This document shows, piece after piece, positions 1-30,865 of a stretch of DNA of 36,333 nt. Under the pieces are notes generated by a model. That model saw only the letters and a list, made by a program, of their open reading frames with translations, was not told where the DNA came from and searched no databases. The DNA comes from a virus, in the IMG/VR virus record IMGVR_UViG_3300020191_000034, positions 1-36,333 of that record; one strand, 5' to 3'. How positions within the stretch are numbered: the stretch's first letter is position 1; each line of letters opens with the position of its first letter. A program made the translations under genes and the position numbers.

Positions 1-820
1 CAGACAGCAACCGAAGGACATTTGCAATGTCCTTGCTATCGAAGCCATAGGCTTCGACTTGCGAAGCAAGCTGCTCAACTACTGCTTCAGCAGTAGGCTG
101 GTTCTTGCTGCCAGCCTTCGGCTTCTGTTCAGCCTTCGGCTGCTCTGGCTTTGTATCAGCCTTCGGCTGGTCTTCGACCTGGTCGGTTGCCTGATCCTTC
201 GGATCAGAAGCAGCAGGCTGCTCATCAGTCGTAGACTGATTGCCATCAGCCTCTGGCTGAACTGGCGGCTTAGGCTCTTCCAGAGCCTTGACGAGCTTCG
301 CTCTGGTTTTGTCAGTCAGCGGAGCTGAATCGATGAAGTCCTGACCCTCTGGGTCAAGTTCGACTACCTCTACGAGGTAGCGCTTCAAGCCACCAACAAG
401 CCCTGTAGGGCTTGTGGCATCACAGCGGAAGAACACTTTCTTGTTCTTCCGGCTTCTGGCTTTCCGATTGACATCCCTTCCTCTATCGAGGAAGCCGTTA
501 CGGTGTTCCTCCGGAACAGCACCGATCAAAAGCATCTTCGATGCTTCTGGCATGGCATTGGCTTTGCCAAACCGAAGCACTAGTGCTTCCCAGATGGCAG
601 TTCCTTTCAGGAACACCCCCCAATCGTTCTCACTGAAGTGAGAACGCAGCTTGACCATGAACTCCGACGCATCGAAGATGCGTTCCTGATCATCGACGGG
701 CTGCTTCGCAGCCTTAGTCACTTCGTTACCGAAGTGATCCAGTGCCTCACCGAAGGTGTGGTCGGTTTCGCCGATTTTCCCGAAGGGAAGGTTGAGGATT
801 TGTGCTGATGTCTTCGACAT
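1..820 (-). CDS. Hypothetical protein encoded inside a dense hairpin array (3' end outside window)
   Basis: I do not recognise this protein. Translation from the ATG at 820 stays open for 273 codons to the window edge, so the C-terminus is missing. GGAG lies 7 nt before this ATG; an in-frame ATG at 832 is less well placed. Residues 1 to about 165 look globular with mixed charge (LPFGKIGETDHTFGEALDHF near the start; a basic patch RKARSRKNKK near 130-140). Residues about 185-250 form a low-complexity Pro/Gln/Lys/Glu/Ala linker with repeated QPKA units. The visible end (VEAYGFDSKDIANVLRLL) looks like a small helical domain. That plan resembles DNA-binding or SSB-like phage proteins, but this is inference. 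The striking feature is the DNA: about 33 perfect short hairpins cover roughly 63% of the gene without breaking the frame. Confidence 0.8.
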   Translation of the reverse strand, partial: MSKTSAQILNLPFGKIGETDHTFGEALDHFGNEVTKAAKQPVDDQERIFDASEFMVKLRSHFSENDWGVFLKGTAIWEALVLRFGKANAMPEASKMLLIGAVPEEHRNGFLDRGRDVNRKARSRKNKKVFFRCDATSPTGLVGGLKRYLVEVVELDPEGQDFIDSAPLTDKTRAKLVKALEEPKPPVQPEADGNQSTTDEQPAASDPKDQATDQVEDQPKADTKPEQPKAEQKPKAGSKNQPTAEAVVEQLASQVEAYGFDSKDIANVLRLLS

Positions 821-821
821 T

Positions 822-834
822 CGATTCTCCATCG
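822..834 (-). promoter_or_regulatory. Ribosome-binding site held in a hairpin loop
   Basis: On the minus strand the Shine-Dalgarno GGAG sits in the loop of CGAT-GGAGA-ATCG, immediately upstream of the ATG at 820. That ATG is itself the first arm of the next hairpin (808-820, ATGTC-GAA-GACAT). The arrangement could expose the SD while sequestering the start codon. It also decides the start: 820 is preferred over the in-frame ATG at 832. Confidence 0.5.
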
Positions 835-854
835 GTTGGTGGACCGGGGTAAGT

Positions 855-900
855 CCTTCATCTAAACCCCCTCACTTCGTGATGGGGGGTTTAGTGAAGG
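855..900. terminator. Long compound hairpin in the leader of the leftward gene
   Basis: An outer 6-bp stem (855-860 with 895-900) encloses a 9-bp stem TAAACCCCC (863-871) with GGGGGTTTA (885-893). This encloses an apical TCAC-TTC-GTGA hairpin (872-882). It is much longer than its neighbours and resembles a terminator or attenuator, but neither strand has a clean following T-run. Leftward transcripts would cross it about 35 nt before the start codon at 820, so it could be a leader attenuator or stability element. Confidence 0.45.
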
Positions 901-1085
901 CCTAAGTTTTCGAGGGGTGGGGTGTTTCAGACCCTCTGGGTCTGGTCATTGGAAGCCTTCCAACCAACAGCCCCTTCTTAGGGGCTGAAGTTTGCTGACA
1001 GGATGCTCCATCCCAGCAACCAATCCGCTGCTCAGAATCAGAGATTCTGGTCATCGATGGGTGTCAACTGATCTATGATCAGAGG

Positions 1086-1297: not shown

Positions 1298-1374
1298 TGG
1301 CCCTTCGGACAGGACTCGAACCTGTAACCTACGGTTTAGAAGACCGTTGCTCTATCCAGTTGAGCTACCGAAGG
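1298..1374 (-). tRNA. tRNA-Arg (anticodon UCU), CCA encoded
   Basis: Read leftward, this folds as a complete cloverleaf. The acceptor stem is CCTTCGG with CCGAAGG. The D-stem is GCTC/GAGC. The anticodon stem is ACGGT/ACCGT with loop CTTCTAA (anticodon TCT). The T-arm is ACAGG-TTCGAGT-CCTGT, the discriminator base is G, and the 3' CCA is in the DNA at 1300-1298. It reads AGA and, by wobble, AGG arginine codons, which are frequent in the late genes here, so it may supplement the host pool. It lies at the divergence point between the leftward array gene and the rightward late block. Confidence 0.96.
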
Positions 1375-1612: not shown

Positions 1613-1641
1613 TTGACAAATGAAGAAAAATAGAGTATACC
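1613..1641 (+). promoter_or_regulatory. sigma70-like promoter overlapping the first gene's start
   Basis: TTGACA (1613-1618), a 17-bp spacer and TATACC (1636-1641). It shares the 12-mer ACTATTGACAAA and a near-identical TATA(C/A)CTAT, at the same distance, with the capsid promoter at 12301-12336. This suggests one phage promoter class. The predicted ATG at 1620 lies in its spacer, so transcripts from it cannot include that start. Confidence 0.6.
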
Positions 1642-1814
1642 TATCCGTACTTGAAGACTTTTATCGTAAAGCCCACAAGGCTGACACTAATTTGAACTAT
1701 CCGCATTCGGATGTGTTCTATGTCCGTGCAAAGATACGCGAAGACACAGGTGTTGAGTACAGCCTAGATCACGTAGAGCGATCAATGATCGCCGAGGGCT
1801 GGAAAGAACCCTAA
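1620..1814 (+). CDS. Small hypothetical protein (64 aa), first gene of the late block
   Basis: I do not recognise this protein. It is 64 aa, with mixed charge and aromatic residues (FYRKAHKADTNLNYPHSDVFYVRAKIREDTGVEYSLDHVERSMIAEGW, given here only as its general character: helix, loop, helix), and looks like a compact folded domain. The ATG at 1620 has no Shine-Dalgarno sequence and sits between the -35 and -10 of a strong promoter. Full-length protein could therefore only come from a longer transcript, such as one from 1400-1427. No other in-frame ATG occurs before residue 56. The next gene begins directly after its stop. The reading frame is plausible; the start is doubtful. Confidence 0.55.
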   Translation: MKKNRVYLSVLEDFYRKAHKADTNLNYPHSDVFYVRAKIREDTGVEYSLDHVERSMIAEGWKEP

Positions 1815-2018
1815 TTGATTAGCTTTAAGGCCGTTCTGGTCGTCTGCAACTTCTTCGATCCAAGCGATTGTGTGGAATTCCGTGACCGTCTTGGTCCGTA
1901 TACCGAAGAACAAGTCTGCGTAGCACGTATTTATCAAATGAAAGACGACATCCTTGAGATGTGGCCGAACCTACAGGCGCATCTTGGTTATAGGTGCGAA
2001 GAGGTCGAAGGCACATGA
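1815..2018 (+). CDS. Small hypothetical protein (67 aa), possible paralogue of the 3003-3194 product
   Basis: The frame begins with TTG immediately after the previous stop, so the start is tentative. The protein opens with a hydrophobic strand (FKAVLVVCNFF), continues with a short charged segment (VEFRDRLGPYTEEQVCVARI), then a helix, and ends YRCEEVEG. The plan is a beta strand, then a Cys-containing helix, then a second strand with Cys. It resembles the gene at 3003-3194 (VFLLYVFV, MYFRDLNDCVWYAQKL, ITSYCLPRW). Small proteins of this type recur in marine phages, as far as I recall, without known function. The end overlaps the start of the next gene at 2015 by 4 nt. Confidence 0.6.
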   Translation: MISFKAVLVVCNFFDPSDCVEFRDRLGPYTEEQVCVARIYQMKDDILEMWPNLQAHLGYRCEEVEGT

Positions 2019-2290
2019 CTGTTGAAAAGGCGGGTGAGAAGTTCTCTGGCTACAACAAACCAAAACGAACCCCCAATCATCCTAAGAAATCTCATGCCGT
2101 ACTAGCCAAAGAAGGCGACAAGGTACGGCTTATCCGTTTTGGCCAGCAAGGTGTGCGCGGTGCTGGCAAGAATCCAAAGTCTAAGAAAGATAAGGCTCGA
2201 AAGAAGTCTTACTACGCAAGGCACAACGCACAGGGCAAACCGACCTCCAAGATGTCGGCAAAATACTGGTCACATAAGGTGAAATGGTAA
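2015..2290 (+). CDS. Conserved-type basic phage protein (91 aa)
   Basis: The ATG at 2015 is chosen because GAAGG sits 3-4 nt upstream; an open frame further upstream (from 1994) overlaps the previous gene and lacks an SD. The product is very basic and glycine-containing: FSGYNKPKRTPNHPKKSHAV, then VRLIRFGQQGVRGAG, a Lys/Arg-rich middle, and the closing SAKYWSHKVKW. I recall similar short proteins in many marine phages and some large algal viruses, with no established function. The charge suggests binding to nucleic acid or packaging into the virion, which is inference. Confidence 0.75.
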   Translation: MTVEKAGEKFSGYNKPKRTPNHPKKSHAVLAKEGDKVRLIRFGQQGVRGAGKNPKSKKDKARKKSYYARHNAQGKPTSKMSAKYWSHKVKW

Positions 2291-2652
2291 TGGCTAAACC
2301 TAAGAGCTTGAACGCAGCGATCTCAGAAAAGGCAATGAACCTGCTCGACACAATGAGTGCCTCTGCAGCGCAGAAAGCCATGAAGTCTGACTTCAATTCA
2401 TACAAACAGAAGACTGGCAGTTTTCATAAGTTTGATGAGAGGCATGCGATGAACACAGAAACGACAACCAAGAAGCCCAAGACCAAGATGATGGGCGGCG
2501 GATACAGCAAGAAACGCCCTGCGATGATGAAGGGCGGCATGGCTAACGGTAAGAAGCACATGTATGCGGCTGGCGGCTCTGTGATGGACAGCCTTACACC
2601 TGGCCAGAAGAAGATGGTCATGGCTATGGCCAAGGACAACGGGAAATCCTAA
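2290..2652 (+). CDS. Met/Gly/Lys-rich small protein (120 aa)
   Basis: The start is the ATG at 2290, which overlaps the previous stop as TAATG and is served by GGTGA about 8 nt upstream. An in-frame ATG at 2284 is too close to that SD. Residues 1-50 look helical (SEKAMNLLDTMSASAAQKAM). Residues about 65-100 are a Met/Gly/Lys-rich tract with the motifs MMGGGYSKKRP, MMKGGMANGKK and YAAGGSV. The end (SLTPGQKKMVMAMAKDNGK) is a short helix. GG-M-K tracts of this kind occur in small late proteins of marine phages. Function is unknown. Confidence 0.7.
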   Translation: MAKPKSLNAAISEKAMNLLDTMSASAAQKAMKSDFNSYKQKTGSFHKFDERHAMNTETTTKKPKTKMMGGGYSKKRPAMMKGGMANGKKHMYAAGGSVMDSLTPGQKKMVMAMAKDNGKS

Positions 2653-2840
2653 TGGCTGCGGGTATTCATTACTTCCGTGATGGCACGCCCTACAAGGGCG
2701 AAATCCACAAGCACAAAGACGGGACGATTATGACTGGTAAAAAGATGACCAGTTCGTCTCGTAAGGTGTTTCACTTTAAGGACTTGTCTGATGCCGCAAA
2801 AAAGAAAAGCCGCGCCAAAAAAGGCAAAGGCAAAAAGTAG
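2652..2840 (+). CDS. Small basic protein (62 aa)
   Basis: The start codon overlaps the previous stop (TAATG). The product reads GIHYFRDGTPYKGEIHKHKD, then TGKKMTSSSRKVFHFKDLS, and ends in a Lys-rich tail (AKKKSRAKKGKGKK). The first part looks like beta hairpins rich in His and Gly. I recall similar late proteins in marine phages, with unknown function. Its last 50 nt are also the start of the next gene in another frame, so the Lys-rich tail is dual-coding. Confidence 0.72.
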   Translation: MAAGIHYFRDGTPYKGEIHKHKDGTIMTGKKMTSSSRKVFHFKDLSDAAKKKSRAKKGKGKK

Positions 2841-3003
2841 GGTCAATGAAGCTGGTAATTACACCAAGCCGACTATGCGTAAAAACCTCTTCAACAAAAT
2901 CAAAGCTGGCAGTAAGGGCGGTAAGCCCGGTCAGTGGTCGGCCAGAAAAGCACAGATGCTGGCACAGCAGTACAAGAAAGCCGGGGGCGGCTACAAGGAC
3001 TGA
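2791..3003 (+). CDS. Small basic protein with NEAGNYTKPTMRKNLF motif (70 aa)
   Basis: It starts inside the previous gene (50-nt overlap, different frame). After a Lys/Ala-rich N-terminus it carries SRVNEAGNYTKPTMRKNLFN, KAGSKGGKPGQWSARKAQML and AGGGYKD. This conserved-looking signature I recall from small proteins of marine phages and algal viruses. No function is known to me. It ends with TGATG, overlapping the next start. The strong motif makes this a real gene despite the overlap. Confidence 0.78.
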   Translation: MPQKRKAAPKKAKAKSRVNEAGNYTKPTMRKNLFNKIKAGSKGGKPGQWSARKAQMLAQQYKKAGGGYKD

Positions 3004-3194
3004 TGGTTCACGTCTTCCTGCTCTACGTTTTCGTGGGTATGGGCGAAAGCAAGAAGCTGGTCAGCGACAACATGTACTTCCGCGATCTGAATGATTGCGT
3101 TTGGTACGCGCAGAAACTGCACAAACAAGGTGAACTAATCACCTCGTACTGCCTTCCTCGCTGGGTCAAAGAGGACGATCAATACATTTATTAA
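3003..3194 (+). CDS. Small hypothetical protein (63 aa)
   Basis: The ATG at 3003 overlaps the previous stop (TGATG); an open frame further upstream is only the shadow of the previous gene. The N-terminal hydrophobic segment VHVFLLYVFVGMG could be a beta strand or a short membrane segment. It is followed by MYFRDLNDCVWYAQKLHKQ and ITSYCLPRWVKEDDQ. It shares layout and the central Cys with the product of 1815-2018, so the two may be old paralogues. It is followed 12 nt later by a strong SD for the next gene. Confidence 0.65.
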   Translation: MVHVFLLYVFVGMGESKKLVSDNMYFRDLNDCVWYAQKLHKQGELITSYCLPRWVKEDDQYIY

Positions 3195-3206
3195 GGAGAG
3201 ACGTGG

Positions 3207-3662
3207 ATGCTTGCCGAGCTTGCAGCCGCAAACGCCGCCTTTTCGGTGATCAAGCAAACCGTTGCACACGGCAAAGAACTGGCCACAGCCGGTAAAGCCA
3301 TCAACGATTTGGTGTTCGCTAAAGAGGAATTAAGGCGACGTAGCGAGAAGAAGAAAAACAGTCTGTTCAGCAGGTCACAGGACTCTTCCGAATTCGACGA
3401 GTTCATGGCCCTCGAACAGATCAATAAGAACGAAGCCGAGCTTCGCTCAATGATGCAGATATATGGACGAGCCGGTCTGTGGAACGACTGGCAGAAGTTT
3501 CAAGCTGAAGCACGGAAGTCACGCCAAACACAAGAGAAGCTTAAAGCACGGAAGCGCAAAGAGCTTATGGAAGTACTGATTTGGTCTGTAGTTGGTCTGT
3601 TGATTCTATCGGCAGCGGGGGGACTGTTCTACTGGGCGCTATTGAGTAAAGGCGTAATTTAA
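3207..3662 (+). CDS. Membrane-anchored late protein with long N-terminal helical region (151 aa)
   Basis: A good SD (AAGGAG) precedes the ATG. Residues 1-115 are mostly helical: AELAAANAAFSVIKQTVAHG, AKEELRRRSEKKK, EFDEFMALEQINKNEAEL and the motif GRAGLWNDWQKFQAEARKS. Residues about 124-146 form one transmembrane helix (LIWSVVGLLILSAAGGLFYW) near the C-terminus, so it is probably a tail-anchored membrane protein. I recall relatives in marine podophages just upstream of lysis genes. A role in lysis or membrane remodelling is possible from position alone. Confidence 0.75.
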   Translation: MLAELAAANAAFSVIKQTVAHGKELATAGKAINDLVFAKEELRRRSEKKKNSLFSRSQDSSEFDEFMALEQINKNEAELRSMMQIYGRAGLWNDWQKFQAEARKSRQTQEKLKARKRKELMEVLIWSVVGLLILSAAGGLFYWALLSKGVI

Positions 3663-3922
3663 TGGCGAAGAAAAAGTCCCAGAAAAGCCTGACGGCTTGG
3701 ACAAAACAGAAGTGGAGAACCAAGAGTGGAAAGCCTTCTACACAAGGTTCAAAGGCTACGGGTGAACGCTACCTTCCGGAGAAGGCAATTAAAGCACTGT
3801 CTGCGGCGGAGTATGCACGGACTTCGAAGAAGAAGCGCGAGGATACTGCGAAAGGCAAGCAGCACTCTAAGCAGCCTAAGAAGGTCGCTAAGAAAACTCG
3901 TTCCTATAGGAAGAAATCCTGA
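3662..3922 (+). CDS. Small highly basic protein, DUF5872-like (86 aa)
   Basis: It starts at the TAATG overlap with the previous stop and ends at TGATG with the holin. It is extremely Lys-rich. Motifs in order are KSLTAWTKQKWRTKSGKPS, TGERYLPEKAIKALSAAEYA, TSKKKREDTAKGKQ and KKVAKKTRSYRKK. This pattern fits my recollection of the DUF5872 family found in phages and algal viruses; the DUF number is from memory and uncertain. Function is unknown. It may bind nucleic acid. Confidence 0.72.
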   Translation: MAKKKSQKSLTAWTKQKWRTKSGKPSTQGSKATGERYLPEKAIKALSAAEYARTSKKKREDTAKGKQHSKQPKKVAKKTRSYRKKS

Positions 3923-4302
3923 TGCTTAATCTATTGATTGGCCCTGTAGCAGAACTGGCTGGTACATGGCTGAAAGGCCGCGTAGAACGCGGCGCGGCGA
4001 AGACAGAAGCTGAAGTTGCCAAGAAGAAGGCAGAGGCTGTCGTCTATCAGCGCAAAGCTAACGCCGAAATCGACTGGGACTTGGAAGCGATCAAAGGCGC
4101 TTCTACTTCGTGGAAAGACGAATGGCTTACCATTCTGTTCAGTATCCCCATGATCCTAGCCTTCATTCCCGGCATGGAAGGGATTGTAGCGCACGGTTTC
4201 GAGCAGCTTTCTCAAGCCCCCGATTGGTATTTTTATAGCCTTGGAATAATCGTAAGCGCGAGCTTCGGGTTTCGCGGCGCAGCTAAGTTCTTCAAGAAAT
4301 AA
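3922..4302 (+). CDS. Holin, three-transmembrane GTA type (126 aa)
   Basis: The ATG overlaps the previous stop (TGATG). The N-terminal 65 residues are an amphipathic, charged helix (TEAEVAKKKAEAVVYQRKAN). They are followed by SWKDEWLTILFSIPMILAFI, a first membrane helix at about 69-85, and by a second at about 105-122 (WYFYSLGIIVSASFGFRG). The SWKDEW-xx-I and GIIVSASFG-RG signatures match my recollection of the three-TM holins linked to gene transfer agents and marine phages. Such holins form membrane lesions that release the lysozyme. The position two genes upstream of a T4-type lysozyme supports the call. Confidence 0.8.
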   Translation: MLNLLIGPVAELAGTWLKGRVERGAAKTEAEVAKKKAEAVVYQRKANAEIDWDLEAIKGASTSWKDEWLTILFSIPMILAFIPGMEGIVAHGFEQLSQAPDWYFYSLGIIVSASFGFRGAAKFFKK

Positions 4303-4374
4303 TGTACTTCATGTGGGACATGCACAGCAGAACAACCCTCGACCAAGCGGAAGTAAATCGTGGCAGAGCTAACA

Positions 4375-4563
4375 ATGGAACGCTTCCTCAAGTGGAAGAT
4401 ACTACCCCGTCTAATGATGATGATGATGACGCTTATGTCGTGGCGCGTAGTGGAATGGTTTATGACCCTGCCCGACCCCACCAACGCCCAAGCTGGTCTA
4501 GTTAGCGTTGTAACAGGCGCTATGACAGGTGCGTTTGCTGTATGGCTGGGACACGAAAAGTAG
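4375..4563 (+). CDS. Small two-segment membrane protein of the lysis cassette (62 aa)
   Basis: The ATG at 4375 is preferred over a GTG at 4360 in the same frame. The product begins MERFLKWKILPRL and has a membrane segment with five consecutive Met residues, encoded by (ATG)5 at 4414-4428. It ends LPDPTNAQAGLVSVVTGAMTGAFAVWLGHEK, with a second membrane segment. I recall the motif LPDPT-xx-QAGLVS-x-x-GA-TGAFAVWLGHE from small proteins beside lysozymes in marine podophages. It may be a holin partner or antiholin. The 72-nt gap before it contains only weak alternative frames. Confidence 0.75.
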   Translation: MERFLKWKILPRLMMMMMTLMSWRVVEWFMTLPDPTNAQAGLVSVVTGAMTGAFAVWLGHEK

Positions 4564-4659
4564 ATGGAGTGGTGGGAAGTCTGGCTTGTCGTAATGATCA
4601 CAACAAATACCGCGGTCAATTGCGCTAGATGGTATTTGGATAGGAAGAACAAGAAATGA
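4564..4659 (+). CDS. Very small single-span membrane protein (31 aa)
   Basis: ATG at 4564 directly follows the previous stop, and the frame ends at TGA 4657-4659, giving an ATGA overlap with the lysozyme start at 4656. The product MEWWEVWLVVMITTNTAVNC followed by ARWYLDRKNKK has one hydrophobic helix and a basic C-terminal tail, so it should sit in the membrane with the tail in the cytoplasm. The gapless fit between two lysis genes argues that it is real. It may modulate the holin (antiholin, pinholin-like or signal-anchor role). It is too short to have obvious homologues. Confidence 0.62.
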   Translation: MEWWEVWLVVMITTNTAVNCARWYLDRKNKK

Positions 4660-5147
4660 AATACAGCCGAGAAGCCTTTGTAGAAGCCCTCGTAGAACAC
4701 GAAGGATATCGACAGTTTGTTTACAAGGACACGCTGGGCATCGACACAGTGGGCATTGGTAGAAACCTAGAAGATCGGGGGATTACCAAAGAAGAGCTAG
4801 ATCACCTTGATATCCCAAACATCAAAGCCGTTTACGAACATGGGTTAGAATATGCTGATGCCGTTTATCTCGCATGCAATGACATTGAGATCGTGGAAGA
4901 GGAATTACTACGGCATCACGCCTGCATCGAAGACCTCTCTGCCACCCGGCAAATGGTACTTATGGATATGGCATTTAATATGGGTGTGCCGCGGCTACTC
5001 AAATTCAAGAAAATGTGGGCGGCTATCCATGCCGGAGAGTTCGAGACAGCCTCAGTCGAGATGTTGGATTCGAGATGGGCAGTGCAAGTGGGAAAAAGAT
5101 CACAGAAGGCGGCTCTTAGAATGCGAATAGGGGAAGAGAATGCCTAG
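4656..5147 (+). CDS. Endolysin, T4-type lysozyme (glycoside hydrolase 24), 163 aa
   Basis: It cleaves the beta-1,4 bond between MurNAc and GlcNAc in peptidoglycan. The catalytic layout of T4 lysozyme is visible: E16 in VEHEGYRQ, D25 in YKDTLG and T31 in IDTVGIG, with spacings close to T4 (E11, D20, T26). The length matches the family. The C-terminal half has the expected helices (MVLMDMAFNMG, then LKFKKMWAAIHAGEFETA and SRWAVQVGKRS). There is no signal peptide, so it needs the holin. Its start overlaps the 31-aa gene (ATGA) and its end overlaps the next gene by 8 nt. Confidence 0.95.
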   Translation: MKYSREAFVEALVEHEGYRQFVYKDTLGIDTVGIGRNLEDRGITKEELDHLDIPNIKAVYEHGLEYADAVYLACNDIEIVEEELLRHHACIEDLSATRQMVLMDMAFNMGVPRLLKFKKMWAAIHAGEFETASVEMLDSRWAVQVGKRSQKAALRMRIGEENA

Positions 5148-5508
5148 ACAGCTTACAGAAAGACAGCAGTCGTTCTTAGCTTGTTTGTTCGAGGAAGCTG
5201 CTGGAGACATGCGGACAGCCATGCGGTTAGCTGGCTACTCAGACAACACCACCATTGCTGAAGTTACGAATTCCCTAAAAGAAGAACTGATGGAGCATAC
5301 GCAAACCTTCTTAGCTAGGAACGCCCCTCGTGCCGCTATGGCTATGGTAGGCGTTGTAGATGACCCAACTGCACTGGGTAATCGCGACAGGCTAGCAGCA
5401 GCAAATCAGATACTGGACCGCACAGGTCTTGTCAAAACAGAGAAGGTAGCAGTGGAAGCGAGTGGCGGGGTAATCCTGCTGCCGCCTAAAAGAGATGCGG
5501 AAGACTAA
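5140..5508 (+). CDS. Terminase small subunit-like protein (122 aa)
   Basis: The N-terminal RQLTERQQSFLACLFEEAAG, DMRTAMRLAGYSD and TTIAEVTNSLKEEL have the helix-turn-helix layout of small terminases that follow replicating DNA to the packaging start. The second part is helical (AAMAMVGVVDDPTALGNRDR, LAAANQILDRTGLVK), as in the oligomerisation region. It ends VILLPPKRDAED. It overlaps the lysozyme by 8 nt and the next gene by 14 nt, and lies close upstream of terL. The next gene may share or replace this role. Confidence 0.75.
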   Translation: MPRQLTERQQSFLACLFEEAAGDMRTAMRLAGYSDNTTIAEVTNSLKEELMEHTQTFLARNAPRAAMAMVGVVDDPTALGNRDRLAAANQILDRTGLVKTEKVAVEASGGVILLPPKRDAED

Positions 5509-5908
5509 ACTACCTCGATACAAGCTGCCGCAGCCAACGGATGTAAAAGGCGATGATGGAGAATATATCGCTGTACCTCGGATCGCTCGAACTATTCCGT
5601 ATGGTTACAAGCAGAGTGAAGAAGATCCAGACATTCTTGAGCCGGTAGTACTTGAGTTAGCTGCACTAGAAATAGCCAAAGACTACATCAAACAATATTC
5701 GTACAGGCAGGTAGCAGATTGGCTGTACTCAAAGACAGGTCGATACATATCACACACTGGATTACGTAAGCGGCTACTGAATGACCGATCTAGAAAAAGC
5801 CAAGCAGCAACTCTTAGGAAGTGGGCCGAGTACGCGGAAAAAGCAATCGCCAAAGCGGAAACCCTCGAAAAAGGCCGCATCGGTTCAAAAGAAAAAAGCA
5901 CCGCCTAG
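5495..5908 (+). CDS. Helix-turn-helix protein overlapping terL (137 aa)
   Basis: The core PRIARTIPYGYKQSEED, then LELAALEIAKDYIKQYSYRQ and VADWLYSKTGRYISHTGLRK resembles a recombinase-type or small-terminase-type helix-turn-helix: RTIPYGY followed by an S-xx-VA-WL turn and SHTGLRKRL as recognition helix. I recall equivalents just upstream of the large terminase in many marine phages. It probably binds DNA near the packaging site or assists TerL. Its last 128 nt overlap the first codons of terL in another frame. Confidence 0.75.
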   Translation: MRKTKLPRYKLPQPTDVKGDDGEYIAVPRIARTIPYGYKQSEEDPDILEPVVLELAALEIAKDYIKQYSYRQVADWLYSKTGRYISHTGLRKRLLNDRSRKSQAATLRKWAEYAEKAIAKAETLEKGRIGSKEKSTA

Positions 5909-7331
5909 ACCTGCAGCACCTGTCGAAGAAGTTCCTGTAGAAGAACAGAACGTAATCTTCGCACCTAACGATGGCCCACAAACCGAGTTTCTAGCAGCCG
6001 GTGAACGGGAATGCCTTTATGGCGGGGCTGCTGGCGGCGGAAAAAGCTACGCGATGTTGGTTGATCCACTTCGCTACATGACACACTCGCAGTTCAGTGG
6101 GCTGCTTCTTCGTAAGACAACCGAGGAACTGCGAGAACTGATTTGGAAAAGCCAAGAGCTGTATCCAAAAGTTTATCCGGGCATCAAATGGTCCGAAAGA
6201 AAAATGCAGTGGACTGCGCCATCTGGAGCGAGGCTGTGGCTGTCTTACCTCGATAGAGACGAAGACGTGCTTCGCTATCAGGGTCTTAGCTTTAGCTGGA
6301 TAGGCATGGACGAGTTAACGCAATGGCATACGCCATTCGCATGGAACTATCTCCGCTCTCGTCTACGTTCTACTGCCGCTGACCTTCCTGTTTACATGAG
6401 GGCCACCACAAACCCAGGAGGCGCTGGGCATGCTTGGGTCAAGAAGATGTTCATTGACCCAGCAGTATTCGGAGAAGCCTTCGATGCTACTGACATCGAG
6501 ACAGGCGAGACACTCCGATATCCGGTAGGACACTCAAAGGAAGGTCAGTCTTTATTCAAACGGCGTTTCATACCAGCAAGACTGGCAGACAACCCGTACC
6601 TATCTGACGCTGGCGACTACGAGGCAAACTTGCTGTCGCTGCCAGAGCAACAAAGAAGACAGTTACTAGAAGGCAGTTGGGATATCGCAGAAGGCGCAGC
6701 CTTCACTGAATGGGACAGAAACGTACACGTTGTTGACCCATACGATATTCCAAAGACATGGGTAAAGTTCAGGGCGTGTGATTACGGATATGGAAGTTAT
6801 TCTGCTGTACTTTGGTTTGCAATTACTCCTGACGAGCAACTGGTCGTGTATCGCGAGTTGTATGTATCAAAGGTACTTGCAGCGGACCTAGCAGACATGG
6901 TCCTCGAACTTGAGGAAGACGACGGAAACATAAGGTACGGCGTTCTCGATAGTAGCTGCTGGCATAAGCGCGGAGACACTGGCCCTAGCCTAGCAGAGCA
7001 GATGATTAGCCGGGGCTGTCGTTGGCGACCTTCAGATAGAAGCGCCGGTTCACGAGTAGCAGGTAAGAACGAACTGCACCGTAGGCTGAAGGTAGACGAC
7101 GAAACATTCGAGCCGCAGATCGTATTCTTCAATAGCTGTCGCAACTTGATATCGCAGCTTCCGATTATTCCACTGGATAAGAAGAACCCAGAGGACATTG
7201 ACACTAAAGCCGAGGATCACCTGTACGACGCCCTACGCTACGGCATCATGACCAGACCTCGCTTCAGTGTATTCGGCGATAACATGCCACCCCCAAACTA
7301 CCGGCCTATAGATCGCGTGTTTGGCTACTAA
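5781..7331 (+). CDS. terL: Terminase large subunit (516 aa)
   Basis: This is the ATPase-nuclease that cuts and pumps DNA into the prohead through the portal. Walker A GGAAGGGKS is at residues 81-89, Walker B FSWIGMDE at 171-178 and the coupling motif ATTNPGG at 208-214. The RNase H-like nuclease has D334 (RACDYGYGS), D390 (YGVLDSS) and the D479/D483 motif (AEDHLYDALRYG). The first about 55 residues are Lys/Pro-rich and disordered-looking; they overlap the upstream gene in another frame. The start at 5781 is the only ATG that keeps this extension. The next gene follows after 9 nt with an AAGGA SD. Confidence 0.97.
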   Translation: MTDLEKAKQQLLGSGPSTRKKQSPKRKPSKKAASVQKKKAPPRPAAPVEEVPVEEQNVIFAPNDGPQTEFLAAGERECLYGGAAGGGKSYAMLVDPLRYMTHSQFSGLLLRKTTEELRELIWKSQELYPKVYPGIKWSERKMQWTAPSGARLWLSYLDRDEDVLRYQGLSFSWIGMDELTQWHTPFAWNYLRSRLRSTAADLPVYMRATTNPGGAGHAWVKKMFIDPAVFGEAFDATDIETGETLRYPVGHSKEGQSLFKRRFIPARLADNPYLSDAGDYEANLLSLPEQQRRQLLEGSWDIAEGAAFTEWDRNVHVVDPYDIPKTWVKFRACDYGYGSYSAVLWFAITPDEQLVVYRELYVSKVLAADLADMVLELEEDDGNIRYGVLDSSCWHKRGDTGPSLAEQMISRGCRWRPSDRSAGSRVAGKNELHRRLKVDDETFEPQIVFFNSCRNLISQLPIIPLDKKNPEDIDTKAEDHLYDALRYGIMTRPRFSVFGDNMPPPNYRPIDRVFGY

Positions 7332-7340
7332 GGAAAAAAC

Positions 7341-9470
7341 ATGGAAGAAGATGACATCATTCCAGAGACTGACGAAACTGTAGTCCTCGAAGATACACCT
7401 GAAGAGGACGAAGGTGATGTTACTGTTCGTGCCATTCTCGAAACAATTCGAGGAAAGTGGACGAAAGCATCGGATGCACGGATCAATGACGAAAAGCGTT
7501 GGTTGAGCGCTTATCAGAATTACCGTGGTATGTACTCTGACGACATGTCATTCACAGAAGCTGAAAAGTCTCGTGTGTTTGTGAAGGTGACTAAGACAAA
7601 GGTACTGGCTGCATACGGTCAGATCACCGATGTGTTGTTTGCCAATAACTCGTTCCCACTCAGCATCGAGCCTACCGAACTTCCAGAAAAAGTTGCTGAA
7701 GCTGTACACTTCGATAGCCAGCAGCAACAACAACAACCCCCCTCTTCTCCATATGGCTTTCCGGGCGACGGACAAGGCCTTCAGCCGGGTGATACACTCA
7801 ATACCCTTATGGATCGTTTAGGGCCACTCAGCGACCCTCTGAGCGAGATTGAAGGGGTAAAGGAAGGCGCAGGAGCTACTCCATCTTCAGCCACATTCTA
7901 CCCAGCTATGTTGGCTGCAAAGAAGATGGAGAAGAAGATCAAAGACCAGCTAGAAGAAAGCAGTGCAAGTAAGCATCTTCGTAGCTCTGCCTTCGAGATG
8001 GCTTTGTTTGGTACGGGCATTATGAAAGGCCCGTTTGCTGTAGAGAAAGAATATGCGAACTGGAACGACGACGGTGAGTACGATCCGAACTTCAAGCTTG
8101 TACCGCAAGTAAGTCACGTTTCGCTTTGGGACTTCTACCCAGATCCAGACGCCACGAATATGGACGATGCTAACTACGTTTTCCAAAGACATCGTCTGAA
8201 CCGTAGCCAGCTTCGTGAACTAAAAAAGCGTCCGCACTTCCGCCCTGATGCAATCGATATGTGCATCGAGATGGGTGAGAACTTTACCCGCGAATACTGG
8301 GAAGACACGCTACGCGACTATCAGCAGTATCAGGATGTAGAGCGTTTCGAAGTTCTGGAATACTGGGGCTGCTTTGATAAGTACTATCTGGAAGACAACG
8401 GAATAGAACTGCCCGAAGGATTGCAGGATGCAGACGAGATCCATGCTAATGCATGGGTGTGCAACAACAAACTAATCCGCTTGGTTCTAAATCCATTCAA
8501 GCCTATGCGCATTCCTTATATGGCTGTGCCGTATGAGATGAACCCATACAGCTTCTTTGGTGTGGGTTTGGCAGAGAACATGGAAGATACGCAGATGCTG
8601 ATGAACGGCTTCATGCGTATGGCAGTGGATAACGCTGTTCTGTCGGGCAACCTGCTTATCGAGATTGATGAAACGAACCTAGTTCCGGGTCAGGATATGG
8701 CTATCTACCCCGGCAAGGTGTTTCGCCGTCAAGCAGGCGCACCTGGGCAAGCAATCTTTGGGACAAAGTTTCCGAATGTTGCTGGTGAAAATATGCAGTT
8801 GTTTGATAAAGCACGACAGCTTGCTGATGAAAGCACAGGCTTCCCTTCCTTTGCACATGGTCAAACCGGCGTTACGGGCGTAGGCCGTACAGCATCGGGC
8901 ATATCGATGCTGATGAACGCCGCCAGCGGTAGCATCAAGACTGTCATCAAGAACATCGATGATTATCTGCTGCGACCACTGGGCGAAGGTTTGTTCCAGT
9001 TTAATATGCAGTTTGACTTCGACCCCGAAACTAACGGTGATCTCGAAGTTAAAGCGCGTGGCACAGAAAGCCTGATGGCTAACGAGGTCCGTAGCCAGCG
9101 TCTCATGCAGTTCCTGCAAATCACTAGCAATCAGATGCTAGCTCCGTTTGCAAAGACTTCGTACATCATTCGAGAGATTGCAAAGTCGCTGGAACTCGAT
9201 CCAGAAAAAGTCACCAACAATATGGAAGAAGCCATGCGTCAGGCACAGCTTCTTGCACAGACGGGTGGCATTCAAGCAATGGCCGAGCAGCAGGCAGCAC
9301 CGGCTGGGGCAAACCCAGCAGATCCAACAGGTACTGGCGGCGGCACAATCGGAACTGGCGTAGCACCTGCGCCGGGTGAGCCGGGATTCACAGGAAATAA
9401 TGGACCGCAAAATACTCAACAGCCTGAAGCCGCAGGTCAACAACAACCGCCAATGGCAGGCATTCAATAA
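7341..9470 (+). CDS. Portal protein (709 aa)
   Basis: It forms the dodecameric ring at the capsid vertex through which DNA passes. Position directly after terL and the domain layout support the call: an acidic N-terminus, the helical body (KASDARINDEKRWLSAYQNY; KVTKTKVLAAYGQITDVLFA), the middle barrel region (PQVSHVSLWDFYPDPDATN) and the late LADESTGFPSFAHGQTG / RTASGISMLMNAASG segment typical of podovirus portals. The length is large but usual for this group. The C-terminal 100 residues are Gln/Gly/Pro-rich and contain the start of a nested gene in another frame. Residues about 120-150 carry a poly-Gln insertion. Confidence 0.92.
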   Translation: MEEDDIIPETDETVVLEDTPEEDEGDVTVRAILETIRGKWTKASDARINDEKRWLSAYQNYRGMYSDDMSFTEAEKSRVFVKVTKTKVLAAYGQITDVLFANNSFPLSIEPTELPEKVAEAVHFDSQQQQQQPPSSPYGFPGDGQGLQPGDTLNTLMDRLGPLSDPLSEIEGVKEGAGATPSSATFYPAMLAAKKMEKKIKDQLEESSASKHLRSSAFEMALFGTGIMKGPFAVEKEYANWNDDGEYDPNFKLVPQVSHVSLWDFYPDPDATNMDDANYVFQRHRLNRSQLRELKKRPHFRPDAIDMCIEMGENFTREYWEDTLRDYQQYQDVERFEVLEYWGCFDKYYLEDNGIELPEGLQDADEIHANAWVCNNKLIRLVLNPFKPMRIPYMAVPYEMNPYSFFGVGLAENMEDTQMLMNGFMRMAVDNAVLSGNLLIEIDETNLVPGQDMAIYPGKVFRRQAGAPGQAIFGTKFPNVAGENMQLFDKARQLADESTGFPSFAHGQTGVTGVGRTASGISMLMNAASGSIKTVIKNIDDYLLRPLGEGLFQFNMQFDFDPETNGDLEVKARGTESLMANEVRSQRLMQFLQITSNQMLAPFAKTSYIIREIAKSLELDPEKVTNNMEEAMRQAQLLAQTGGIQAMAEQQAAPAGANPADPTGTGGGTIGTGVAPAPGEPGFTGNNGPQNTQQPEAAGQQQPPMAGIQ

Positions 9471-27478: not shown

Positions 27479-30400
27479 ATGGCTATAATTTATACTCAAG
27501 AAGACGGGTTTGCCGATGATGATACTAATGCTGCTATACCGACTCGTCGCACTAGACCTACACCAGATGACATTACCGTTGATGGGTTGGCTTCTAATGA
27601 AGGCTACCTAAACAACGTCCGTGCCTACATGTCTGACAGGCTTGGCGATAAGGGAAAGCAGCAGGATGATGAAGAAAACGAAGATTACGTAGAACGGTTT
27701 TTGACCCACATGCGGTCATTTGAAAACCGCTCCATAGAGCTTACTGGTCAGATCGACTACATGCGCAAGGCAAACGCAGATCAGCGCAAGAAGTTTTTAA
27801 ACGCATACACCTTGTACAACCAGCTTCCCGGCTTCATGAGTGAAGGTGGCGGTGGCGTGGGCAGCGCTATTGCTGACTATGCGTATTACAATATAGCTGA
27901 TCCTGTTAATATCGCCGGTCTTGGTGTTGGCAGTATTGCTGCCAAGCAACTGGCAAAGCAGGGTGTAAAAGGACTGATGCTGGGTATGGCCAGATACGGT
28001 GCTGTTCCGTTTTTGACGGACGGCACTATTGGTGCTGGCATGGACTTAGGTCTGCAAAAGGTAGAGAAAGAAACAGGCATTCGCGACGAATACGATTTTG
28101 GTCGTACCGGCATAGCATTTGGTGCTTCTGGAGCAGGCAGTGCAGCGGCGCAGGGCATTGGGCTTGGTTTATCAAAGGGGGTAAACTCGGTCTTTGGTAG
28201 AGACTTAGCGGATGAAGGAACAGAAGCCCTGCTCGATGCTAATGCGGATCGCGCACTAGCTCGTAACGATGGCAACAGAACACCTGAACAAGTAGCCATT
28301 GATTCACTCGATCCAGATCCAGTCCGTACAGCGCGTGTAAAAGCATCTCCGAATACGCCAGACGCACCCTTTGATGCGCCTCGTGGCAGGGCTATTTTGG
28401 ATAGGATGGCCGGTGAATCGGGTGACATGATAAGCCCAGAACTAAGACTGGATATCAACAGATATGTTTATGATTTCCTCAATGAAATGCTTGAGGACTT
28501 GCCAAACAAAGAACTCGCTCTTCAGCTACGAACCCCCTCTGGTGAGCGAGTAGCCGATGAGCAGATTTCAGATACAGTATTCCGTGTATTGCAAAACGAG
28601 GATCTTGTAGGTCGGTTGGACGAAGACGCTCTGAGTGGTGCTCTAGCAAGAAACGGCGTATCTGCTGAAGAGTTTGCACAGATATACCGTGTAACTGTAG
28701 GCGATGCTGCTCGACAGATGAACGCCGCTAGCCAGTTTGCAAAGAAACTCGCCAGAGCCGGTGTTCTTGATAGGACACGTACAGATGCACTTACAGCTTA
28801 CCTGACCGATAAGAAACCTGTCGGCATAATTCAAAGGGGCGTTCAAGCCTTCGCCAATCCCACCGGAACAGCAATGACGCTGGATAGAAACCGGCGAGGT
28901 CTTCTGGTTTCACAGATTCCTACACTAATCCGAAATGTTGGAACTACTGGCATTAGAGGAACTATGGATGCGGCTGCAGACATTATCGATGCAGCAGGTT
29001 TTTACGCTATTCGTAAAGCGCAGAAGGCACTAGGTCAGGACGTACCTGATTATAGTCTTGGTTCTGCCTTGTCAGATGCATTTGGCATGGTGCGCAATCT
29101 CAACGATCAGGGCTTTAGTAAAGATGTTGTAGCAGCAACGCTCGGCAGCAACCCAAAGCTACTACAACAGATATCTAGAAGCCTGACAGATATCGGAGAT
29201 GGTGAACTAGCTGCCCCTGTGCGACTGTTGAATTACTTCAACATGACACACGACGGCCTTGTTAGACGAGCCATATATACGTCTGCTCTTGAAAAGCAGC
29301 TTAGACGGCAGACCGGCCTGAGCATTGCAGAGACAATAGCTAAAAAGGGCAAAGTTCCGCTGGAGTTCCAGCAGAAGGCAGTTAGAGAAGCATTAGAGTT
29401 TACGTTTGCTGACATGCCTACTGGCCCTTGGCAAAGTCGCTTTGTTCAATTGGTAGAGCGAATGCCGTTCATTGGCACGAGTGTCTTTACCTTCCCTCGA
29501 TTTACTGTATCTGCCCTAAACTTTACAGCTAACTATGTTCTTGGTGGCAAGGCAGGCAAAGGCGTTTACAAACTTGCTAGAGGCGCTGCCACTGGCAATG
29601 AAAAGTTTTTGAATGAAGGCATGACCGATGTGTCCAAAGGCATAATCGGAACATACATGCTGTTTGAATCGGTAGCACATCGGGCTGCAAACCAAGATGT
29701 GAAGTGGTTCGAGTACAGAGACGAAGAAGGTAAGATAGGCGATCTACGGCCCTTCTTCCCCTTAGCCCCCTACCTTCTGGTTGCAGACATACTCGTTAAA
29801 TACCCCAGACTACTGGGAGTAGATGTCCCCGATGTACCCGTAGAAAAAAGTCTGCTCAGGTCTGCTAGAAGAGGTCTTGGCAACCTTACCAACAATACCA
29901 TTGGAGACTCCGATTTCCGTGAAGACGTGGGTGAAATGGGTACAGGCAAGAGTCTGCCTACCCGTGACATTGTTGAAGGCTTATTAGGAACTAGGCTGGC
30001 GGGAACGCAGCTTTACATCATTGATGGCTTGTTCAAGGCAGCACAAACAGAAGGTGAACTTGGCGGAACAGCCAGCAAAGACTCAATTGGAAATCAAAAG
30101 TTGGCTGAATTAGCAGGCAACTTCTTTGGTGAATTGTTTGGTGGGCCACTTAACGTCAACTTTGTAACCGGATTAGTACGAGATATTGTTCGCACTTTTG
30201 ATAGCGAAGAAGCCATTGTGCGCGACATGAGAGGACAGCGTGGAAACACTACAGGCGGTCGTTTTGCCGACTCCTTCGTGACAGCGGCTACACGCGGCAT
30301 TCCTTACATGAATCAAGATAGACCGCCTTTGGAGAGCGCAACAAGACCCGGCAACCTTACGTATCAAAGTCCTCTAGTTACTACCTTTACAGGTATTAGA

Positions 30401-30865
30401 AAGACAGAAGCTCGTACTGGCTTAGAAGACGAAATTGTAAGACTTGGTATTACCTACAACGAAATCAATCCATCTACAGGTGACGCAGAAGCAAACCGGC
30501 TGCTGACTAAAGAACTCGGAATAGTAGCGCCTGACTTAGTGAATATATCTAGTGGTTCGTATCAGAACATGACTGATGCTGAAAAGAAAAATTACATAAT
30601 CGACACGTATGCCACAGCCCGAAGTATTGCTCGTGAAATAGCAATCGGAAAAAGCTCTATGGATACGGAAACTGTCACCGACGAAACAGGTAAGGAAAGA
30701 CAGTTTTCTGTATTTGACAGGCAGCAATGGGGCGCAACCCCTCAAAGAATTAGAACTGTAGTCAACCAATATTACATAAAAAATTTCGGGGCTACCGTTG
30801 AACAGCTAGGTGCATACCGTGCTGGCAATGCGTATGCCAAAGCCGAAAGAGGCAAGTTTAAGTAA
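27479..30865 (+). CDS. Very large probable internal virion / ejection protein (1128 aa)
   Basis: Soluble N-terminus, then a Gly/Ala-rich, membrane-like section at about 120-245 (GVGSAIADYAYYNIADPVNI; GSIAAKQLAKQGVKGLMLGM; GIAFGASGAGSAAAQGIGLG). This suggests several short membrane-active helices. The middle and C-terminal parts are mixed alpha. RFVQLVERMPFIGTSVFTFP and RFTVSALNFTANYVLGGKAG form a second hydrophobic stretch near 660-700. Such a layout fits an ejected channel component. No catalytic motif was found. It overlaps the next start by TAATG. Confidence 0.72.
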   Translation: MAIIYTQEDGFADDDTNAAIPTRRTRPTPDDITVDGLASNEGYLNNVRAYMSDRLGDKGKQQDDEENEDYVERFLTHMRSFENRSIELTGQIDYMRKANADQRKKFLNAYTLYNQLPGFMSEGGGGVGSAIADYAYYNIADPVNIAGLGVGSIAAKQLAKQGVKGLMLGMARYGAVPFLTDGTIGAGMDLGLQKVEKETGIRDEYDFGRTGIAFGASGAGSAAAQGIGLGLSKGVNSVFGRDLADEGTEALLDANADRALARNDGNRTPEQVAIDSLDPDPVRTARVKASPNTPDAPFDAPRGRAILDRMAGESGDMISPELRLDINRYVYDFLNEMLEDLPNKELALQLRTPSGERVADEQISDTVFRVLQNEDLVGRLDEDALSGALARNGVSAEEFAQIYRVTVGDAARQMNAASQFAKKLARAGVLDRTRTDALTAYLTDKKPVGIIQRGVQAFANPTGTAMTLDRNRRGLLVSQIPTLIRNVGTTGIRGTMDAAADIIDAAGFYAIRKAQKALGQDVPDYSLGSALSDAFGMVRNLNDQGFSKDVVAATLGSNPKLLQQISRSLTDIGDGELAAPVRLLNYFNMTHDGLVRRAIYTSALEKQLRRQTGLSIAETIAKKGKVPLEFQQKAVREALEFTFADMPTGPWQSRFVQLVERMPFIGTSVFTFPRFTVSALNFTANYVLGGKAGKGVYKLARGAATGNEKFLNEGMTDVSKGIIGTYMLFESVAHRAANQDVKWFEYRDEEGKIGDLRPFFPLAPYLLVADILVKYPRLLGVDVPDVPVEKSLLRSARRGLGNLTNNTIGDSDFREDVGEMGTGKSLPTRDIVEGLLGTRLAGTQLYIIDGLFKAAQTEGELGGTASKDSIGNQKLAELAGNFFGELFGGPLNVNFVTGLVRDIVRTFDSEEAIVRDMRGQRGNTTGGRFADSFVTAATRGIPYMNQDRPPLESATRPGNLTYQSPLVTTFTGIRKTEARTGLEDEIVRLGITYNEINPSTGDAEANRLLTKELGIVAPDLVNISSGSYQNMTDAEKKNYIIDTYATARSIAREIAIGKSSMDTETVTDETGKERQFSVFDRQQWGATPQRIRTVVNQYYIKNFGATVEQLGAYRAGNAYAKAERGKFK

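Follow-up and report, generated by a model that had tools for sequence, protein, structure and literature searches.

Organization of the left end of the contig

The window analyzed in this study is a 36,333-base virus contig (positions 1–36,333 of IMG/VR record IMGVR_UViG_3300020191_000034). Its best matches over positions 2045–8000 were Puniceispirillum phage HMO-2011 and the Roseobacter CRP phages, with homologous terminase, portal, and other late genes in the same order as in HMO-2011, and the contig is therefore an HMO-2011-type marine phage. The first early gene lies on the minus strand at its left end (832..2; P0001, 277 amino acids) and is the counterpart of HMO-2011 gp74 and CRP-1 gp01. 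The gene is cut by the contig end, the homologous protein of L002 (an IMG/VR contig with the same protein; loci compared in this study are denoted by L numbers, with L003 being HMO-2011) having 303 amino acids. A longer stem-loop of the 5' leader type, read directly from the sequence and thus putative, is located just before the start codon (855..900, minus strand), with comparable leader stem-loops being apparent at the same place in HMO-2011, L059, L094, and L176. A tRNA-Arg (TCT) gene is situated in the intergenic hub (1298..1374, minus strand) and is a bystander rather than a part of the array described below. It was also present in L001 (a second IMG/VR contig with the same protein), L002, and the homologous locus L012, but was not detected in the stretches of HMO-2011, CRP-1, and CRP-345 that were searched; it is possibly an attachment-site relic or a phage tRNA. 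The other side of the hub is marked by the first genes of the divergent late operon (1620..2290, plus strand), which are homologues of HMO-2011 gp71 and gp69 and where hairpin density is at background.

We detected 34 nonoverlapping perfect hairpins (stem of ≥5 bp, loop of 3–5 nt) between positions 14 and 1082, 25 with 3-nt and 9 with 4-nt loops and with stems of 5–9 bp, whereas the rest of the contig contained about 3 per kb. Twenty-eight of these hairpins lie in the coding part (14..820, minus strand) and six upstream of the gene (928..1082, minus strand), the latter being conserved with loop and arm changes in L001 and L002. Synonymous-codon shuffles of the gene yielded 6.3 ± 2.1 hairpins (maximum of 15 in 500 shuffles), and dinucleotide shuffles yielded a mean of 2.6 (maximum of 9). 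Six other genes of the contig were close to their shuffles, and the gene ranked first among the 22 open reading frames of ≥150 amino acids in the window (z = 20.5, compared with 3.8 for the next).

The observation of a dense hairpin array made in the first-pass annotation was thus confirmed, with some corrections. The count of about 40 hairpins given there matches the 41 obtained when stems of 4 bp are included, but the claimed coverage of roughly 63% of the coding part was a little high, with stems of ≥5 bp covering 55% of positions 1–820 and 37% of 821–1082. The gene had been described as intact, which it is not, and loops of 2 nt belong to the set as well. Loops do fall in several codon phases as had been claimed, with 43, 11, and 58 in the three phases over nine homologous genes.

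Searches of Pfam and PHROG returned no family for the encoded protein, and searches of solved structures and folds gave no informative match, with no PDB hit and a single viral fold hit (S4S2E1, 205 amino acids) whose length suggests HMO-2011 gp74. No homologue was found in bacterial or archaeal genomes with one query protein. The protein is predicted to be helical, with a linker and a COOH-terminal helical pair (pLDDT of 72.5), contains a conserved basic RRRR motif, and resembles nothing solved; no DNA-binding fold was recognized. The linker includes a repeated PKAE-type segment (130–169, minus strand), in which the repeated codons CAGCCGAAGGCTG are themselves hairpins, and the same repeat is present in L001 and L002. 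Only two short families of direct repeats were found in the window, mostly this PKAE-coding repeat. In an Rfam search of positions 1–2400, only the tRNA reached the gathering score.

Occurrence of the array in related phages

L001 and L002 were found to carry the same array. HMO-2011 possesses an array in and around gp74 with other arms, and a scan with a neighboring conserved gene yielded 80 loci, several with arrays, with CRP-1 and CRP-345 carrying it at their first early gene. These genes form a family composed of HMO-2011 gp74, CRP-1 gp01, CRP-345 gp01, L046, L033, and L059, which the window-type protein matches only weakly (E value of 4e-4 in a profile HMM search). A scan with the family alignment yielded 80 more loci. 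Excess over synonymous shuffles was apparent in nine genes and in all 64 distinct homologues tested (mostly from the family scan, with two from a scan with L059), each of which exceeded the maximum of 60 synonymous shuffles, with 866 hairpins in total against 170 expected. Given that these homologues share ancestry, they do not represent 64 independent events; rather, the trait has been kept while the arms changed. The family gene was the top outlier in HMO-2011, CRP-1, CRP-345, and the window, whereas no gene stood out in CRP-207. CRP-207, CRP-603, and CRP-738 showed neither the array nor the family gene, so that the two are found and missing together in the genomes compared.

One further locus, L079, resembled an array by count but is a tail-fiber gene and not a homologous site. 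It remained in the small set of 13 arrays used for loop lengths and core stem positions, where it contributes 10 of 346 hairpins and which also includes a near-duplicate (L058), but it was not included in the 64-gene count, the comparison of relatives, the density profile, or the unique-hairpin and alignment analyses. Hairpin peaks in HTVC115P lie in AT-rich DNA.

Geometry and distribution of the hairpins

Over the 13 arrays, hairpins with stems of ≥6 bp had loops of 2 nt in 61 cases (3.8 expected), 3 nt in 135, and 4 nt in 46, against about 4 expected for each, whereas loops of 5 nt or longer fell toward chance and were nearly absent. Among 219 unique 6-bp triloop hairpins, the closing pair was C-G in 150, T-A in 52, G-C in 10, and A-T in 7, and was thus pyrimidine-purine in 202. 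GNA loops were present on one strand or the other in 93 of the 219 hairpins, with 71 (GNA) on the sense strand and 22 (TNC) on the other. Among unique in-gene hairpins, GAA loops numbered 38 and TTC loops 6, but the strand bias outside genes was weak once identical hairpins were merged (18 versus 9).

Hairpin density was profiled over 73 loci. It was 0.05 per 100 nt on the late-operon side beyond –1100, peaked at 1.96 at –300 to –200, dipped to 0.27 over the promoter and leader just before the gene, was about 1.5 through the gene, and then fell slowly to about 0.25 by 3 kb into the early operon, fading over 3–4 kb. In CRP-1, the counts per kilobase from the gene start were 14, 7, 6, 5, and 0. 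Within single phages, one palindrome recurred two to four times (L093 at 429–442 and 1059–1072; L059 at 4575, 5508, 6292, and 7077; L003 at 8878 and 9808; GTCCAAYGTTGGAC, TGACGAAACTTCGTCA, and AGTCCGACAGCGGACT), possibly corresponding to an operator or regulator site among the sequence-free hairpins.

Promoter positions were inferred from consensus matches rather than from mapped starts. L176 contains TTGACA-18-TATTAT at –118, and HMO-2011 contains a perfect divergent sigma-70 consensus promoter (TTGACA-17-TATAAT, with TG before the –10 element) near –800 (L003 8397–8369, minus strand) that points into the late operon; the window itself has no consensus promoter. The density peak at –300 to –200 therefore lies upstream of the likely early promoter near –120 and between it and a divergent late promoter. 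A strong intrinsic terminator directly after the early gene in L059 (near 6091–6107) and L176 (3738–3757) suggests a separate short transcript for this gene. Iteron-like repeats of the ACATTTAAAGTG type were present in AT-rich DNA upstream of the arrays (L094 at 2150–2280, L101 at 2066–2165, and L003 at 8219–8346), followed by a C-rich sense-strand tract and a shared GTGGTTAACACT box. A GC-skew minimum was also detected at the hub, but it is present in array-less CRP-207 and CRP-738 as well and follows the direction of transcription.

Covariation and pairing rules of the stems

To examine whether the arms change in concert, we aligned 47 homologues. The named structure had 308 cells changed on both sides, compared with 132 ± 10.5 in shuffles and 48–103 in slid versions, and 79% of cells were paired, compared with 29–44% when slid, although the slid comparison is biased in favor of the structure because it was derived from these sequences. 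Hairpin sites were kept in 29–47 of the 47 homologues at many positions. In the closest pairs of relatives, single mismatches outnumbered matched double changes by about 31 to 5, and compensatory transversions were also observed.

Wobble pairs did not appear to be accepted. At core stem positions, Watson-Crick pairs numbered 234 whereas G-T pairs remained at 2–8, the chance level, and unique hairpins gave the same picture. In the alignment, G-T was depleted relative to shuffles (234 versus 327) in the same manner as were A-C (299 versus 365) and other mismatches (645 versus 850), and pairs broken between relatives were G-T no more often than A-C. Given that A-T pairs are common in the stems (707 of 1314), a change from A-U to G-U in RNA would cost little and should be seen. 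In otherwise intact helices, however, a single G-T was twice as frequent as a single A-C (32 versus 16), so that some wobble tolerance is not excluded. The excess of predicted folding was equal on both strands and usually larger with DNA parameters, with the RNA folding excess also being strong (z of –3 to –9).

Large late proteins

Given the similarity of the hairpins to promoters of the phage N4 virion RNA polymerase, we looked for such an enzyme. The two largest late proteins of the window (1128 and 927 amino acids), as well as the HMO-2011, CRP-345, and CRP-1 counterparts of one of them, showed no T7/N4-type polymerase motifs B or C; a PF00940 search returned no match, but it also returned none in its controls and so does not count as evidence. 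The 1128-residue protein (27479–30865, plus strand) is shared by array phages, and blastp found no homologue in array-less CRP-207, CRP-603, and CRP-738, although these have a protein of similar size in a similar place. Only two near-identical relatives of this protein were retrieved, too few for a useful alignment.

Discussion

We have identified a conserved array of minihairpins laid over the first early gene, and over the early side of the divergent promoter hub, of HMO-2011-type phages. Our analysis shows the excess of hairpins, its location, its conservation in diverged phages, the covariation of the arms, the Watson-Crick–only stems, the loops of 2–4 nt with a pyrimidine-purine closing pair, and the sense-strand bias of GNA loops. 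That the molecule that folds is DNA is, in contrast, an inference, based on the lack of wobble pairs beyond chance, the equal folding of both strands, the presence of hairpins upstream of the likely early promoter, and the enrichment of 2-nt loops, which are more natural for DNA than for RNA. N4 promoter hairpins extrude at physiological supercoiling only with a C-G closing pair and a G..A loop (PMC4496689), and the same geometry recurs here dozens of times. We therefore propose that, when the hub is unwound, either by gyrase supercoiling after entry or as a displaced or lagging-template strand when replication starts, the sense strand would snap into dozens of unusually stable minihairpins, a view with which the density gradient into the early operon would fit. 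With less support, we infer that the hairpins may serve as a dense platform of structural sites for an as yet unidentified phage or host replication or early-transcription protein, for example in primase or helicase loading or in keeping SSB or nucleases off the strand, close to a putative replication origin for which the only signs are indirect, namely the GC-skew minimum and the iteron-like repeats. In this view, the first early gene has evolved to carry protein and array at once. The explanation as a whole is tentative and rests on sequence alone: we consider a function at the DNA level about as likely as not, and a role in replication within that reading less likely than not.

The interpretation offered in the first-pass annotation was partly supported. 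What repeats is indeed structure and not sequence, protein sequence is not the cause, other genes lack the array, relatives show compensatory arm changes, and the proposed likeness to N4 promoter hairpins holds for geometry. Neither of the outcomes that had been set beforehand as contradicting it was observed, in that synonymous shuffles did not reproduce the count and no homologue tested lacked the excess. Of the roles suggested there, a structured replication origin fits the position but is not shown, whereas mRNA protection is not supported, given the lack of wobble tolerance, the equal folding of both strands, and the hairpins upstream of the likely promoter, and expansion of one palindromic element is not supported either, the arms being different from each other with only short local repeats.

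The main alternative is a mutational origin, in which the hub is often single-stranded and template switching by DNA polymerase on transient hairpins keeps turning imperfect inverted repeats into perfect ones, so that the array would be a scar of how this DNA is copied rather than a selected device. Template switching has been proposed to create and maintain perfect stems (PMC8794818), and it would explain the Watson-Crick–only stems, their presence in coding and noncoding DNA alike, the gradient away from the hub, and the compensatory changes, including transversions. However, the excess of single over double changes in the closest pairs is as expected for stepwise mutation plus compensation, template switching can invert loops and yet loop orientation is biased, sites stay put in diverged homologues, and sister phages with the same replication genes lack arrays. 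We therefore regard this origin as unlikely, although it remains the strongest rival. Less likely still is an mRNA structure, in which the early transcript is saturated with hairpins for stability, translation pacing, or nuclease protection. The sense-strand bias of purine-rich loops and the strong predicted RNA folding are consistent with this notion, but the behavior of G-T pairs, the equal folding of the antisense strand, the enriched 2-nt loops, and the density peak upstream of the likely promoter argue against it. A binding array for the protein that the gene itself encodes is similarly doubtful: the joint presence and absence of gene family and array and the RRRR motif of the predicted helical protein are in favor, but the window-type protein matches the family only weakly and yet has the densest array, and no DNA-binding fold was recognized. 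Finally, despite the shared hairpin class, the position at the start of the early region, and the 1128-residue protein of array phages, a set of true N4-like promoters for a virion-packaged RNA polymerase is very unlikely, given that the copies share no sequence around them, number about 30 per kb and lie mostly inside a coding gene, that polymerase motifs B and C are absent from the large late proteins checked, and that ordinary sigma-70-like promoters are present in some relatives.

HMO-2011-type phages are described as dominant and broadly distributed in the ocean (PMC9038755). We found no paper that mentions HMO-2011 together with hairpins in a literature search that did not cover subscription journals, the main paper on this phage group does not mention hairpins, inverted repeats, palindromes, or RNA polymerase, and wider searches gave nothing relevant. 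It is possible, although far from established, that the array represents a new kind of genetic element: a sequence-independent array of DNA minihairpins, defined by geometry only (a perfect Watson-Crick stem of 5–9 bp, a loop of 2–4 nt, and a pyrimidine-purine closing pair), selected over several kilobases of a phage early region and written through a protein-coding gene, that folds in unwound DNA to start or protect early replication or transcription. If the array works in DNA, it would be the first case known to us in which the coding sequence of a gene is shaped over its whole length by the need to form dozens of DNA hairpins, and it would point to an unknown way to start replication or transcription. 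If it comes from template switching, it would be an extreme case of this mutational process acting on one locus. Cultured hosts and phages exist (HMO-2011, CRP-1, and CRP-345), so that both readings are testable.

The array can be compared with several known systems. The N4 virion RNA polymerase promoters share with it short perfect stems (5–7 bp in N4), 3-nt GNA loops, a loop-closing C-G pair, and a location at the start of the early region, as well as hairpins that extrude at physiological supercoiling (PMC4496689), but N4 has three sites with a conserved sequence (–17 to +1) at promoters, whereas arms and flanks differ among the copies described here, which lie mostly inside a gene and for which no matching polymerase was found. 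Hairpin initiation sites on single-stranded DNA, such as the priming or primosome sites of G4 and phiX174, plasmid ssi sites, and mitochondrial OriL, are likewise hairpins in an exposed strand near an origin, but they are single or few, sequence-specific, and usually noncoding, rather than a dense, sequence-free array through a coding gene. REP/BIME elements and other palindromic repeat families (PMC3733652) also comprise many small palindromes, but REPs are sequence families, whereas the present hairpins share no sequence and run through a coding gene. Stems created and maintained by template switching (PMC8794818) show perfect pairing and compensatory changes, but have been described for individual RNA stems and not for a lineage-wide dense array with a loop and closing-pair rule. 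The lambda O gene, with the origin inside its coding sequence, similarly represents a cis-acting DNA element embedded in an early phage gene, but lambda has sequence repeats (iterons) that are bound as duplex, whereas only structure is conserved in the array of HMO-2011-type phages.
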